Assembly: GCF_016862995.1 (NCBI RefSeq)
Contig: NZ_BOOA01000012.1
Coordinates: forward strand, 62,001-126,000
DNA from: Acrocarpospora phusangensis
Lineage (GTDB): Bacteria > Actinomycetota > Actinomycetes > Streptosporangiales > Streptosporangiaceae
Length of the DNA stretch: 64,000 nucleotides
Direction: 5' to 3'
A program made the translations under genes and the position numbers. Below, in pieces: positions 22,463-57,896 of this stretch. The notes under the pieces are model-generated. The model had not been told where the DNA came from and did no database searches. It was given only the letters and a program-made list of their open reading frames with translations. Position 1 is the stretch's first letter. Each line of letters opens with the position of its first letter.

Positions 22463-23161
22463 ATGCCGCGTATCGCGAAGGGGGCCGTGCCCAGCCCCAA
22501 CATCTGGCACAACCCCCAGATCTACGAGCTGGAGAACCGCGCCGTGGACCCCGACGGCGTGATCGACACCGCCATCCGCTCGGTACGCCCCTGGACCGGC
22601 GCCACCATCCTCGACATCGGCTGTGGCACCGGCTACCACCTGCCCGGATACGCCTCCGACGCCGCCCGCGTGATCGGCGTCGAACCCCATCCGGACCTGG
22701 CCGCCCTCGCCACCCGCCGCTGCGCCGCCCTCCCCAACGTGACCGTCCAGGTCGCCGCCGCGCAGTCGCTGCCCGTCCCTGACGCGTCCGTGGACGTGGC
22801 CATCGCGCGCTGGGCCTACTTCTTCGGGCCCGGCTGCGAACCCGGCCTCAAAGAGCTCTCCAGGGCCGTCCGCCGCGGCGGCGCCGCGTTCGTCGTCGAC
22901 CTGGACGCCTCCCGGGGCTCCTTCGGCGAATGGTTCCGCGCCGCCGTCCCCGCCTACTCCCCCCGCCTCATCGAGGACTTCTGGTCCCGCCAGGGCTGGA
23001 ACCGCCTCGAACTCACCCCCCGCATGGCCTTCACCCGCCGCCCCGACCTCGAAGCTGTCCTCCGCATCGAGTTCACCCCGGCCGTCTCCCAGCGCGCCAT
23101 CACCGAAACCGAAGGCCTCGAATTCCCCTACCCCACCCTCCTCCGCTGGCGCCTCTTCTAA
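22463..23161 (+). CDS. Class I SAM-dependent methyltransferase
   Basis: This 232-residue methyltransferase has motif I ILDIGCGTGYHLPGY (about 48-62), the acidic end of strand 2 at GVEPHPDLA, and motif III VDVAIARWAYFFGPGCEPGL. It is cytoplasmic with an unknown substrate. It is divergent from the TIM-barrel operon; 94 bp between them hold both promoters. Its 3' end faces the large repeat region before radA, with no obvious terminator of its own. Confidence 0.87.
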   Translation: MPRIAKGAVPSPNIWHNPQIYELENRAVDPDGVIDTAIRSVRPWTGATILDIGCGTGYHLPGYASDAARVIGVEPHPDLAALATRRCAALPNVTVQVAAAQSLPVPDASVDVAIARWAYFFGPGCEPGLKELSRAVRRGGAAFVVDLDASRGSFGEWFRAAVPAYSPRLIEDFWSRQGWNRLELTPRMAFTRRPDLEAVLRIEFTPAVSQRAITETEGLEFPYPTLLRWRLF

Positions 23162-23291
23162 CCGGTACGGCCGCGGGCGAAGCGTTGGGGTGGCTCACCT
23201 GACGTAGACGGGCTCGACCAGGTCCAGAGGGAGTTGGAACCCACCCTGACCAAGGCTCAGACAGTCCGGGCTTCGCACGAGGGGCGGGAGA

Positions 23292-23854
23292 GGTGGTTCC
23301 CCCACCCGCCCTCGAATCCCGCGCGCTTCGCACCCATGTCCTCAAGCCTGCGGCCCAGCCCCGGCAAGGGCGCGGCGAAGCCCTGGTGGTTCCCCCACCC
23401 ACCCTCCCGCAGGCTTCGGCCACACCCCATTCCCTCAGGCCTGCAGCCCAGCCCCGGCATGGGCGCGGCGGAGCCCTGGTGGTTCCCCCACCCATCCACC
23501 CGCAGGCTTCGGCCACACCCCATTCCCTCAAGCCTGCAGCCCAGCCCCGGCATGGGCGCGGCGGAGCCCTGGTGGTTCCCCCACCCACCCTCCCGCAGGC
23601 TTCGCCCCACACCTCATTCCCTCAAGCCTGCAGCCGAGCCCCGGCATGGGCGGGGCGAAGCCCTGGTGGTCTCCCACCCGCCCTCGAACCCCGCGCGCTT
23701 CGCGCACCCATGTCTCAAGCCTGCAGCCCAGCCCCAGCAGGGGCGGGGCAGAGCCCTGGTGGTTCCCCCACCCACCCACCCACGGGCTTCGCCCCACACC
23801 TCATTCCCTCAAGCCTGCGGCCGAGCCCGAGTATGGGCGGGGCGGGCGGAGCCC
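23292..23854. repeat. Six tandem copies of a 93-bp repeat
   Basis: Copies begin with GGTGG at 23292, 23385, 23478, 23571, 23665 and 23758, so the period is 93 (once 94). Conserved blocks are GGTGGTTCCCCCACCC, GCAGGCTTCG, CCTCAAGCCTGCAGCC and CGGCATGGGCG. Copies 1 and 5 share a variant middle part (CCCTCGAA...GCGCGCTTCGC). Minus-strand G-runs such as GGGTGGGTGGGTGGGGG in copy 6 can form quadruplexes. Confidence 0.9.
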
Positions 23855-23861
23855 GCAGAAA

Positions 23862-24341
23862 GGGATGGGTGGGGTGGGAGAACCATCGCAGGCAACGCCG
23901 GGCGTGCCAGCGAACGCCCGAAGAGGAAGCGCCAGCCCGACAAAGGGTGGGTGGGAACCCACCGGCAAACAACGGATGGGAACCCACCGGAAGATCTCGT
24001 CTGGCAAGCGGCCGTGGGCCGGCATCCCGCCCGGATGCCCGCTCGGTGAGCGCGCCGCGCAGCGGCAACAAGGGTGGGTGGGTGGGGAGAACCACCGCAG
24101 GCAGCCGGCACGCCGGAAGAGGGCAGAGCGCCAGCTCAACAAGGGTGGGTGGGAACCCACCGGCAAACAACGGATGGGAAACCACCGGAAGATCTCGTCT
24201 GGCAAGCGTCCGTGGGCCGGCATCCCGCCCGGATGCCCGCTCGGTGAGCGCGCCGCGCAGCGGCAATAAGGGTGGGTGGGTGGGAGAACCACCGCAGGCA
24301 ACCGGCACGCCGGAAGAGAGCAGAGCGCCGACTCGAAAAGG
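23862..24341. repeat. Two and a half tandem copies of a 198-bp repeat
   Basis: Full copies start at 23945 and 24143 with GGGTGGGTGGGAACCCACC, preceded by a partial copy from 23862. Each full copy contains GGAAGATCTCGTCTGGCAAG, then GGTGAGCGCGCCGCGCAG, then a four-run G block with GAGAACCACCGCAGGC. The last block is the reverse complement of the core of the 93-bp array. Confidence 0.88.
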
Positions 24342-24415
24342 GGTGAGAACCACCTCTCCCGCCCTCGTGAGGTTCGTGAGGGGAGATTGTCGGTGGGGGG
24401 CGGTAGCCTCCGGGC

Positions 24416-25843
24416 GTGGGTAAAGCTGCGAAGCCTTCGTATCGGTGTGGCGAGTGTGGCTGGGTGGCCGCCAAGTGGGTGGGGCGCTGTGGGGAGTGCC
24501 AGGCCTGGGGGACGGTCGAGGAGGCGGGAGCCCGGCAAGGGGTGACCGTCGTCAAGGGCGGGGCCGTGTCGGCGCCTGCCGTACCGATCGGGCAGGTGAA
24601 GGCGGAGACCGCGCACGCGCGGCCGACGGGAGTGGGCGAGCTGGACCGGGTGCTGGGCGGTGGCCTGGTGCCGGGCGCGGTGGTGCTGCTCGCGGGCGAG
24701 CCCGGGATCGGCAAGTCGACACTGCTGCTGGAGGCGGCCGCGAAGACGGCGCGGCATGACACGGTCCTCTACGTCACCGGCGAAGAGTCGGCGTCCCAGG
24801 TCCGGATGCGTGCCGATCGCATCGGCGCCATCCAGGACAACCTCTATCTCGCCGCGGAAACCGACCTCGCCGCCCTGGTCACCCACGTGGAGAAGGTCCA
24901 GCCACGGCTCCTGATCGTGGACTCGGTGCAGACGATCGGCTCCCAGGAGGCCACCGGCGTCCCCGGCGGCGTCACCCAGGTCCGCGAGGTGGCCGGCAAC
25001 ATCACCCGCCTGGCCAAGGAACGCGGCATGTCCACCGTCCTGGTCGGCCACGTCACCAAGGACGGCTCCATCGCCGGCCCCCGAGTCCTGGAACACCTCG
25101 TCGACGTGGTCCTCCACTTCGAAGGCGACCGCAACTCCCGCCTCAGAATGGTCCGCGCCATCAAGAACAGGTTCGGCCCCATCGAGGAGGTCGGCTGCTT
25201 CGACCTGCACGAACGCGGCATCACCGGCATCACCGACCCCAGCGGCCTGTTCATCTCCCGCCACCCGGAACCCGTCCCCGGCACCTGCGTCACGGTCACG
25301 ATCGAGGGCACCCGCCCGATCCCGGCGGAACTCCAGGCCCTCGTGGGCCCGACCGAGGCCCCCCAGCCCCGCCGGACCTCCTCCGGCCTCGACTCGTACC
25401 GCGTCGCCATGGTCCTCGCCGTCATGGAACGCCGCCTCAACGCCAAAATCGGCAAATGCGACGTCTTCACGGCCACCGTCGGCGGCATCCGGCTCACCGA
25501 CCCCGCCGTGGATCTCGCCCTCATGCTCTCGGTCGTCAGCGCGGCCGGCGACAAACCCCTCCCCCACGGCCTGGTCGCCTTAGGCGAGGTGGGCCTGGCC
25601 GGTGAGCTCCGCCCGGTGCGCGACGTCCGCCGCCGCCTGGCCGAGGCGGCCCGGCTCGGTTTCACCCGCGCCCTCGTCCCTACCGGCTCGCTCGCGGGGG
25701 ATACCCTCAAACTCGAACCCGCCCCCTCCCGGGGCGACCTGGTCGCGGTCCGCCCCTCCCGGACGCGTACCACGAACTTCTCACCAGGCTTCGACGTTAC
25801 AGAGGCAGAGAACGTCTGGGACGCCTTGACGCACATCCGGTGA
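24416..25843 (+). CDS. radA: DNA repair protein RadA
   Basis: This 475-residue RecA-like branch-migration helicase begins at a GTG. An N-terminal four-Cys zinc finger (YRCGECGWVAAKWVGRCGEC) is followed by the ATPase core with Walker A GEPGIGKST (about 95-105), the RadA-specific KNRFG motif, and a C-terminal Lon-like domain (about 300-455). It helps process recombination intermediates. disA follows about 120 bp downstream, the usual actinobacterial pair; RadA is reported to inhibit DisA in mycobacteria. The start lies about 50 bp beyond the repeat region, so that region may affect radA transcription. Confidence 0.97.
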   Translation: MGKAAKPSYRCGECGWVAAKWVGRCGECQAWGTVEEAGARQGVTVVKGGAVSAPAVPIGQVKAETAHARPTGVGELDRVLGGGLVPGAVVLLAGEPGIGKSTLLLEAAAKTARHDTVLYVTGEESASQVRMRADRIGAIQDNLYLAAETDLAALVTHVEKVQPRLLIVDSVQTIGSQEATGVPGGVTQVREVAGNITRLAKERGMSTVLVGHVTKDGSIAGPRVLEHLVDVVLHFEGDRNSRLRMVRAIKNRFGPIEEVGCFDLHERGITGITDPSGLFISRHPEPVPGTCVTVTIEGTRPIPAELQALVGPTEAPQPRRTSSGLDSYRVAMVLAVMERRLNAKIGKCDVFTATVGGIRLTDPAVDLALMLSVVSAAGDKPLPHGLVALGEVGLAGELRPVRDVRRRLAEAARLGFTRALVPTGSLAGDTLKLEPAPSRGDLVAVRPSRTRTTNFSPGFDVTEAENVWDALTHIR

Positions 25844-33677: not shown

Positions 33678-34457
33678 CTACAGCTTCACCACGACGGTGC
33701 CGGCGACCTTGTCGTGAATCGCCTGCTGGAGCGGCTTGTCCCAGAGCGGCCACAGGCCGTTGACCAGCATGAACAGGCCGGCCAGCGCGTTCAGCGCGAA
33801 GTTGAAGCCGAGCAGCTGCGGGCCGAACAGCACGCCGATGCGCTTGGCCAGGGTCTCGGTGTCCAGACCTCCGTGAACGCTCCCGCCGAGCTTCACGACG
33901 CGGATCTTCATGACCTTCTTGCCGATTGTCTGACCGTCCCGCGAGACCATGAAGAACTCGTATGCGGAGTAGAGCAGGAAGCCCACGATGGCCGCGATCA
34001 GCAGGCCGAGGAACGACGGAGTCGACACGGTTGTAGTTGTGCCGAGGAACTCGATGGTCTCCTCAGTGGAGAACATGCTCGTGATGATCCGGCTGACAAT
34101 GAGCAAGTTGATCACACCGAGGATAACGCCGTCGATGAGTCGCGCGACCAAACGCTGCCACCACTCGGCAAGTGGCGCCGGGACTCCCGGCGGGAGTGGC
34201 ATGCCCATCGGGGAGTTGTAGGCCCCCGCCGACGGGTATCCACCGGGCTGCTGGTAAGCGCCGGGCTGCTGGTAAGCGCCGGGCTGCTGATATCCACCAG
34301 GCTGCTGTTGCTGATAACCACCAGGCTGCTGCTGATATCCACCAGGGGGCGGGTATCCGCCTTGGGGTGGGGGGTATCCGCCTTGAGGCGGCGGGTATCC
34401 ACCCGGAGGGGGAACCGAGCCATACGGGTTCTGGCCGGGGGGAGGTTCCGGGTTCAT
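33678..34457 (-). CDS. RDD family membrane protein with Pro/Gly/Gln-rich head
   Basis: The 259-residue protein has a disordered N-terminal part (about 1-85) of PPPGGY- and GGYQQ-type repeats. An RDD domain with three membrane helices follows, starting [19 protein letters not shown] (the R...D of RDD) and ending with the [13 protein letters not shown] motif. RDD proteins are poorly understood; some act in ion exchange. The start is ATG 34457 with AGAGG upstream. It is a paralogue of the next gene upstream on the same strand. Confidence 0.88.
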
Positions 34458-34644: not shown

Positions 34645-35958
34645 CTATTTGACCTTGACGACCACCGTGCTCGCCGCCTTGTCGAGAACCGACTGCTGGA
34701 ACGGCTTATCCCAGAGGGGCCAGAGCAGACCCACGAGCCAGTACAGGTACACCAGCCACGCGCCAATGACGCGGATTCCGGGAATCCAGGTCAGCACCAA
34801 CGGCCCGGCCAGCGCGCCCGCGCGGCGCAAGGCGGCGTCATTGTCGAGACCACCCTCAAGACGGCCGCCGATGCGCACCACCTTGATTCCCATAATGATC
34901 TTACCGAGCGTTTGACCGCGCTGCTTCAGCATGAGGAATTCGTAGCCGAACAGCACGAGTGTGGTGATGAGCGCGGGCACCAGGTAGACGAGGAACGAAC
35001 CCCGGGTGACCGTCTGGGTCTCGATATCGAAACGATCGGTGGCCGCCCAAATGCCGCCCGCGATGATTCCGAGCGCGATGAGCACGACGGCGTAGAGCGC
35101 TCCATCGATGAGGCGCGCCACCAGACGCTGCCACCATTCGGCGAGCGGCGCGGGCGCGCCCGCGGGAATGGGCGCGGGACCGTAGCCGGCTCCGTAGCCG
35201 CCCTGCGGGCCGTAGCCGTAGCCCTGGTACTGGGGGCCGTAGCCCGGCGGGGGCTGCTGCGGGTAGCCCTGGCCGTAGCCGGGCTGCTGGGCGTAGGCCG
35301 GCTGCCCCTGCTGCGGGTGGCCGTAGCCGGGCTGCGCCTGACCGGGCTGGGTGTGGCCGGGCTGGGTCTGCCCGTAGCCCGGCTGCTGCCCGTAAGGCTG
35401 CCCGTGGGGCTGCCCGGCCGGTTGGCCGCCCGGCTGCTGGCCGTAGGGCTGCCCGCCCGCCTGCTGCGGGTAGCCGGGCTGGGCGTAGCCGGGCTGCGTG
35501 TGCGACTGCTGGCCGTACTGCTGCTCCTGGCTGTAGCCCTGCTGGCCGTAGCCCTGCCCATAGCCCTGACCGTAGCCCTGGCCGGGCTGGGACTGGCCGT
35601 AGCCCTGCCCGTAGCCGCCCTGCCCATAACCCTGGCCGTAGCCCGGCTGGCCGTTGCCCGGCTGGGGCTGCTGTGGGGGCTGCTGAGAGGGCTGCTGTGG
35701 GGGCTGCTGGCCCGGTTGGGCGGGTGGCCGCGGGTAGCCCTGGCCGTAGGCTCCGGTGCCGCCCGCCTGTCCGTACGCCCCTGACTGCGGCGGGCCGTAC
35801 ACGGGACGGGAGCCGGTGCCCGCGGCGGGGTTGCGGCTCATGATGGTGACGTCGGGATCGAATTCCGGCGCGGGCTGTTCCGCGCCCTGCTCCCCGCGCT
35901 CGGGCGGCGGCACGTCGCCGGTCGAGTCGTCCTGCGGGTACGGCGGCTGGGTGCTCAC
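34645..35958 (-). CDS. RDD membrane protein with long YGQ-rich low-complexity domain
   Basis: This 437-residue protein has an acidic start (about 1-55) and a very unusual Gly/Tyr/Gln/Pro domain (about 60-265) built of GYGQ, GQGYGQ and PGYGQ units. The RDD membrane domain (about 270-435) starts [19 protein letters not shown] and ends with [17 protein letters not shown]. The head resembles prion-like or phase-separating sequences in composition. It should face the cytoplasm if the first helix inserts as in other RDD proteins. Function is unknown. Confidence 0.88.
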
Positions 35959-55057: not shown

Positions 55058-57079
<2,022 letters not shown>

Positions 57080-57338: not shown

Positions 57339-57896
57339 TTACTCGCCGCCGTAGACATGGGGGGCGAGCGTGCCTATGAACGGCAGGTTCCGGTACCGCT
57401 CCGCGTAGTCGAGCCCATACCCGATGACAAACTCGTTGGGGATGTCGAAGCCCACATATTTCACATCGATCGGCACCTTCACCGCGTCTGGTTTGCGGAG
57501 GAGCGCGCAGATCTCGGCGGATGCCGGATTACGCGACTGGAGGTTGTTCAGCAACCAGGACAAGGTCAGTCCCGAGTCGATGATGTCCTCCACCACCAGG
57601 ACGTGCCGGTTGGCGATATCGGTGTCGAGGTCCTTGAGCACCCGTACGACACCGGAGGACTTGGTGCCCGCGCCGTAGGACGAAACGGCCATCCAGTCCA
57701 TCTGCACGGGAACGTGAAGCGCTCTGGCCAGGTCTGCCATGATCATGACGGCGCCCTTGAGGACGCCGACGATCAGCAGATCCTTCCCGGCGTAGTCCGC
57801 GTCGATCTGGCCGGCGAGTTCTTTGATCTTGGCCTGGAGCTCGTCTTCGGAAATGAGGACGTTGGACAGGTCCCTGCCCATGTCGGCTGCATCCAC
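57339..57896 (-). CDS. hpt: Hypoxanthine phosphoribosyltransferase
   Basis: Salvages hypoxanthine and guanine with PRPP. The 185-residue protein shows [20 protein letters not shown], the flexible-loop [11 protein letters not shown], the PRPP motif [18 protein letters not shown], and [23 protein letters not shown] 57896 was chosen because AAGGA lies 9 nt upstream; ATG 57881 is possible. It is 11 bp after tilS and probably in one operon with it. Confidence 0.96.

Follow-up and report, generated by a model that had tools for sequence, protein, structure and literature searches.

The 1.1-kb island in front of radA in Acrocarpospora phusangensis is probably a local expansion of a mosaic intergenic repeat family

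In the literature considered here, interspersed palindromic repeats are described mainly for proteobacteria and a number of other phyla, with a link between the REPIN type and RAYT transposases. REPINs are doublets of REP sequences, which lie outside genes in tens of copies, form tandem clusters and leave singlets as remnants (excerpts of PMC3116915). In BIMEs the motifs alternate in orientation; some of the tabulated REPs bear GTGG, and some REPs of Haemophilus have stems of the GGTGGG/CCCACC type (excerpts of PMC2817692). REPs of the CGTC type are described without a dedicated transposase, and the source names phyla other than the one studied here, the word 'actinobacteria' being absent from its main text (PMC3733652). 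A literature search covering titles and abstract openings found no publications on repeats in Acrocarpospora. The MIRU-type repeats of mycobacteria are intergenic tandem units of ~50-100 bp in an actinobacterium.

Here we describe an island of 1.1 kb (23276-24369) with two internal arrays, inverted ends and no recognised gene, located in front of radA in a window of 64,000 nt from Acrocarpospora phusangensis (source genome: 9.11 Mb, 219 contigs). With a probability of about 0.75, we read it as a locally expanded member of a mosaic, non-autonomous intergenic repeat family that is genus-specific and REPIN/BIME-like. The family unit consists of a 20-bp box, GGTGGTTCTCCCACCCACCC, plus exchangeable spacers. 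Its short motif, inverted pairs, extragenic position, tens of copies and tandem clusters resemble REPINs, but the own genome is without a Y1 match and the family spacers are long and mosaic, in contrast to the REPIN/RAYT system. The mosaic of one motif and several spacer types between genes, as seen in the spacer grouping, is BIME-like, whereas the same-orientation runs, facing inward from each side without alternation, are not. Because a Y1 transposase in the own genome and alternating orientation were both looked for and neither was found, the family is not filed here as REPIN or BIME. It shares with the GTAG/CGTC-tagged REPs the character of a hairpin repeat, but the foot of the box carries neither GTAG nor CGTC. 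The box begins with GGTGG, lacks the GTAG tag and has a stem of just 5 bp; a GGTGGGAACCCACC variant in the island resembles the GGTGGG/CCCACC-type stems of Haemophilus. Compared by description, MIRU and the island family are both tandem units between genes in an actinobacterium, and we know of no inward two-sided rule for MIRU. With an actinobacterial family of strong inward bias, several spacers per box and a repeat-rich genome without a Y1 match, the spread or persistence of such repeats without RAYT becomes testable in five sequenced species.

The island follows a methyltransferase gene (22463-23161, + strand; an ORF that also precedes radA in relatives) after a left flank of 114 bp (23162-23275). 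The nearest named relatives of this methyltransferase are from Acrocarpospora macrocephala (83%) and A. corrugata (80%). On the other side, 46 bp separate the island from the GTG start codon (24416) of radA (24416-25843, + strand; ORF and homology), close to the 50 bp given in a preliminary description of this DNA. The same description had seen no recognisable gene inside the island. In agreement with this, a home-made codon-usage gene caller found none between the methyltransferase gene and radA, and Rfam returned four matches up to E=1, all far under the gathering scores; the several mechanical ORFs in the gap are expected given the G+C content. The near-perfect inverted ends could also be confirmed by reading the sequence: the left arm (23276-23299, + strand, 24 nt, CACGAGGGGCGGGAGAGGTGGTTC) and the right arm (24347-24369, - strand, 23 nt, reverse complement CACGAGGGCGGGAGAGGTGGTTC) differ by one additional G in the left copy. 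In the repeat search the island ends appeared as an ungapped 25-nt inverted pair with 88% complementarity.

Two arrays in opposite orientation, likewise part of the preliminary description, were recovered by TRF. The left array (23292-23845, + strand) has a period of 93 with 5.9 copies and 81% matches (alternative solution: period 187, 3.0 copies, 84%), the right array (23914-24329, - strand) a period of 198 with 2.1 copies and 94% matches. At up to four mismatches, a fuzzy box scan resolves the island into eight 20-bp boxes, five rightward and then three leftward. Boxes 1 to 5 are on the + strand at 23292-23311, 23385-23404, 23478-23497, 23571-23590 and 23758-23777, with a shortened box at 23665-23679 recognised by eye; boxes 6 to 8 are on the - strand at 23868-23887, 24077-24096 (four mismatches) and 24274-24293 (zero mismatches). 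With this number the island tops the 102 islands of the sampled stretches, most of which were picked for containing boxes or island matches, and the runner-up has six. Among the 151 spacers compared, the five from the left array cluster solely with one another. The right array is a duplicated module pair, as seen in the own-genome matches and the spacer grouping, and its modules resemble other own-genome sites at 85-91%. This composition supports the earlier suggestion of repeated internal duplication. Furthermore, the island holds eight G-quadruplex-type motifs, whereas 300 dinucleotide shuffles averaged 1.38 and never exceeded 5. On the - strand they lie at 23765-23781 and at 23299, 23392, 23578 and 23673, on the + strand at 24270-24284 (GGGTGGGTGGGTGGG), 23862 and 24072. 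The exact count of GGGTGGGTGGGTGGG in the own genome is 55, which says little by itself because the reversed control is the identical string.

The consensus box folds into a 5-bp stem with a C-tract behind it, but 32 of 200 shuffles fold equally well. Five island segments were also folded; z was -3.08 and -2.26 for two that clearly beat the shuffles, and -0.39, -0.83 and -0.92 for the others, which did not. Perfect hairpins (stem at least 5, loop 3-5) are present in 76 of 125 spacers, compared to 24.4 expected from shuffles, and their stems differ in sequence from copy to copy; the fold of the 60 nt past the box is weak (mean z -0.48). Grouping of 151 spacers, drawn from 165 boxes after short or N-containing ones had been dropped, resulted in ten groups and 54 singletons. 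The largest group contains 53 spacers from four of the five genomes, the other nine are smaller.

The family is dispersed in the own genome, where 66 matches to the island were found at E<=0.001, the island itself counted. In this genome (G000) and in four Acrocarpospora congeners (G001 to G004), the 16-bp core of the box occurs at up to one mismatch in 45, 8, 16, 70 and 55 copies, in comparison to one match of the reversed control over all five genomes. The exact core is found in all five (14, 1, 2, 22 and 14 copies) and, within a survey of 150 genomes sampled from the larger group, in two of the 145 other family genomes with one copy each, so that the family is nearly limited to the genus in this sample. 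Phage and plasmid records gave zero matches to the island, and the exact 20-mer is absent from viral contigs. Scanning 1.38 Mb of stretches from the five genomes, most of them picked for containing copies, for the box yielded 133 boxes against 2 control matches at up to three mismatches, and 165 against 26 at up to four; about one in six of the latter (~26/165) may be chance matches. A strict pattern, which returned 44 sites and missed many copies, was replaced by this fuzzy scan. Various boxes lie within ~100 bp or less of contig ends in G000 to G004; the assemblies may break at boxes, so the copy numbers may be underestimated.

The boxes are clearly biased towards intergenic DNA: 152 of the 165 lie outside called genes, at a non-coding share of 17.5% of the sequence. 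This number was 149 or 142 under farther gene starts, 142 being the most generous case. Two flanking genes could be assigned to 71 of the 102 islands (the others are genic in 10 cases and at stretch ends in 21), with 46 in co-directional, 21 in tail-to-tail and 4 in head-to-head gaps. Divergent gaps are therefore underrepresented (4/71 islands vs 162/615 background gaps, p=3e-5), also with extended starts (4/69 vs 123/546, p=7e-4; 4/65 vs 123/545, p=0.001).

The orientation of the boxes is biased, too. Both orientations are present in just 15 of the 102 islands at up to four mismatches, and 14 of the 15 switches run > then < (p=0.001; 10 of 11 for boxes with up to three mismatches), with a single island of the order < >. 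One-sided islands point inward, with the box head toward the nearer gene, in 48 of 58 cases (p=4.5e-7; 46/56 and 42/53 under two alternative gene-start rules), and 10 of the 58 point outward. With most boxes directed inward from the gene on either side, islands tend toward inverted ends. Boxes facing the 3' end of a gene are within 120 bp of it in 38 of 77 cases, compared to 7 of 51 for those facing a 5' end; with farther starts the latter value becomes 14/51 (p=0.017) or 11/50 (p=0.003). The home-made gene caller clips starts, by 126 bp in the case of radA, and the farthest-start rule restores the radA start. With farthest in-frame starts, all placement results are weaker and of the same sign. 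Altogether, the placement of the boxes fits promoter avoidance.

Gap lengths jump between species at the sites compared. The methyltransferase-radA gap measures 1254 bp in the window, 284 bp in G003, 57 bp in G002, 34 bp in G004 and 31 bp in G001; it holds > and < boxes in G003 and one box in G002. A uniform gap in all relatives together with a lack of other copies, which the preliminary description had named as evidence against a mobile origin, is excluded by these lengths and by the dispersed copies. The sister species G003 and G004, which share 95.2% identity across 4.0 kb of the radA locus, differ in their radA gaps, meaning that one of them gained the island or the other lost it after their split. 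On the tree of the five genomes, the pattern at radA requires a gain plus a loss, or several gains. Comparable differences were found elsewhere. The site at 55.1-55.6 kb of the own contig contains family modules without a scored box and is near empty in G003 and G001, and the one at 57.4-57.8 kb has 385 bp compared to 22 and -10 bp in the same two genomes. At site A, G003 has ~255 bp where G004, G002 and G000 have 1-10 bp. Site B is occupied in G004, is shortened to a left-pointing end in G003 and is near empty in G000 and G002; site C was left out of the counts with its flanks split. As a counterexample, a box-less gap of G002 (1698 bp) is longer than the own L188 gap (1109 bp). Besides radA, seven sites are common to two species (G003-G004: five, G000-G002: one, G000-G003: one), in a sample of stretches fetched around boxes, which favours shared sites. 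These two-species sites indicate that much of the island content is inherited.

Target duplications at filled and empty sites, proposed earlier as a mark to look for, were not seen by eye at radA, at the own 55-kb and 57-kb sites or at sites A and B. There is also no end common to all copies. As the inserts include non-family flank and show no target duplication by eye, part of the turnover may come from deletions that removed entire intergenic regions. The outer inverted repeat itself was searched with CACGAGGGCGGGAGAGGTGGTTC at up to three mismatches and has a single occurrence in the five Acrocarpospora genomes, namely this island; the left arm escapes the ungapped search owing to its extra G. 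Only the inner GGTGGTTC of the outer inverted repeat is derived from the family. The outer 15-16 bp of the island ends match each other inverted; the preferred reading is a local inverted copy, for which template switching between two boxes would be a plausible source. Inward boxes are common to islands, and the outer 23-nt end is private to the one at radA. Of the non-autonomous mobile element considered in the preliminary description, the gene-less dispersed family and the near-empty congener sites (31 and 34 bp) hold up, but the 23-24-nt repeat as the end of the element does not.

Searching for Y1 transposases (PF01797) gave zero matches in the own genome, in a search whose control matched in 5 of 14 genomes. 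All four congeners have matches (11 altogether), which we take to be IS200-type rather than RAYT. The surroundings of seven of these were scanned, leaving out four in G001: five are without a box in the stretch, a degraded copy lies 1.6 kb from two boxes and another one 2.2 kb from a weak box. Since all four congeners carry Y1 genes, the driver may have been a Y1 enzyme that is distant or has since been lost, and the family may be a repeat population that lost its transposase or that was spread by another enzyme. The longest ORFs of 10 among 23 long gaps presumably include some ordinary missed genes and, judged by eye, none that is transposase-like. One Y1 transposase gene (G001, contig 116, 168077-168436) is located in the radA-disA gap within ~1.9 kb of extra DNA; it is absent from this gap in the other four genomes.

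Between the island and radA we found TTGTCGGTG-GGGGGCGG-TAGCCT (24387-24409, + strand, spacer N8), by pattern match an exact fit to the PafBC-type RecA-NDp promoter consensus tTGTCRgtg-8 nt-TannnT (excerpt of PMC5656591). According to excerpts of further studies, PafBC acts through the RecA-NDp motif (PMC6789036, PMC8223512), and the radA-disA operon of Mycobacterium is induced in the RecA-independent response (PMC3900455). In 80 of 83 loci, a set that includes the window and the four congeners, a looser pattern, TGTC-N10-14-TANNNT, lies close to the start of radA, versus 0.3% of shuffles; of the three loci without it, one (L124) has a radA match that starts inside the gene, so that the promoter region is not covered. 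In the two shortest congeneric gaps, the promoter-like sequence makes up nearly everything. The GTG of radA starts 7 nt past the final base of TAGCCT, a distance that suggests a leaderless transcript. The repeat comes within 20 bp of this conserved predicted DNA-damage promoter and leaves it untouched, so that the predicted damage-response promoter of radA looks intact outside the island. Direct disruption of radA-disA expression is therefore unlikely, and the island could possibly keep read-through of the methyltransferase gene from reaching radA.

Several other explanations have to be weighed against a local expansion of the repeat family. The inverted ends and the near-empty sites in G004 and G001 would also suit a discrete MITE-type element that is bounded by the 23-24-nt inverted repeats and was inserted before radA. 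We consider this very unlikely in view of the single occurrence of the end sequence in five genomes, the missing target duplication and the interior modules that match other sites; moreover, the short gaps of G004 and G001 lack the 114-bp left flank of the island as well. An old piece of intergenic DNA that was merely deleted in the relatives is still less credible. The lone box at the same place in G002 and the sites shared by two species speak for such a remnant, but the dozens of dispersed copies, genus-limited in the sample, do not, nor does site A, where G003 alone is filled while its sister G004 and two others are near empty.

A functional element is an improbable explanation, too, though the excess of G-quadruplex-type motifs and the closeness of 3'-facing boxes to genes would be in line with hairpins and G-quadruplexes that stop read-through, insulate or tune radA-disA. 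The distance difference is explained equally well by promoter avoidance, two congeners do without the island at radA, and the RecA-NDp-like sequence is intact. In co-directional gaps, inward one-sided islands lie near 3' ends in 15 cases and near 5' ends in 16; without an excess at 3' ends in these gaps, a strand-specific role as terminator was rejected. Somewhat more room, albeit as a tentative and rather doubtful idea, may be given to a two-ended intergenic repeat of a new kind. Here, boxes with hairpin and G-quadruplex/i-motif would mark the inner side of gene ends, with interchangeable hairpin cassettes on both sides, spread by a non-Y1 enzyme and confined to one actinobacterial genus.

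If the island is a local expansion of the family, as we prefer to read it, each unit would be made up of a box, in which a 5-bp hairpin can form ahead of a C-tract (G-quadruplex-type on the opposite strand), and then a replaceable spacer, which has a short hairpin in most copies. On the left side a 93-bp unit private to the island would have been amplified, and on the right side a dispersed two-module unit would have been doubled. Growth may have occurred by slippage or unequal exchange, and copying in trans may have been carried out by a past or unknown enzyme.

Repeats of other types were also observed. The g3 stretch of G003 (contig 12, start 120001) contains a different ~120-bp repeat (GGCTTGGCCGCC...GGCGCGGCCAAGCC) in two near-identical copies at ~55360-55490 and 57465-57580, which are missing from the matching own gaps. 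In the window, runs of tandem repeats of 12-36 bp are located at 816-956, 34243-34400 and 35269-35709.
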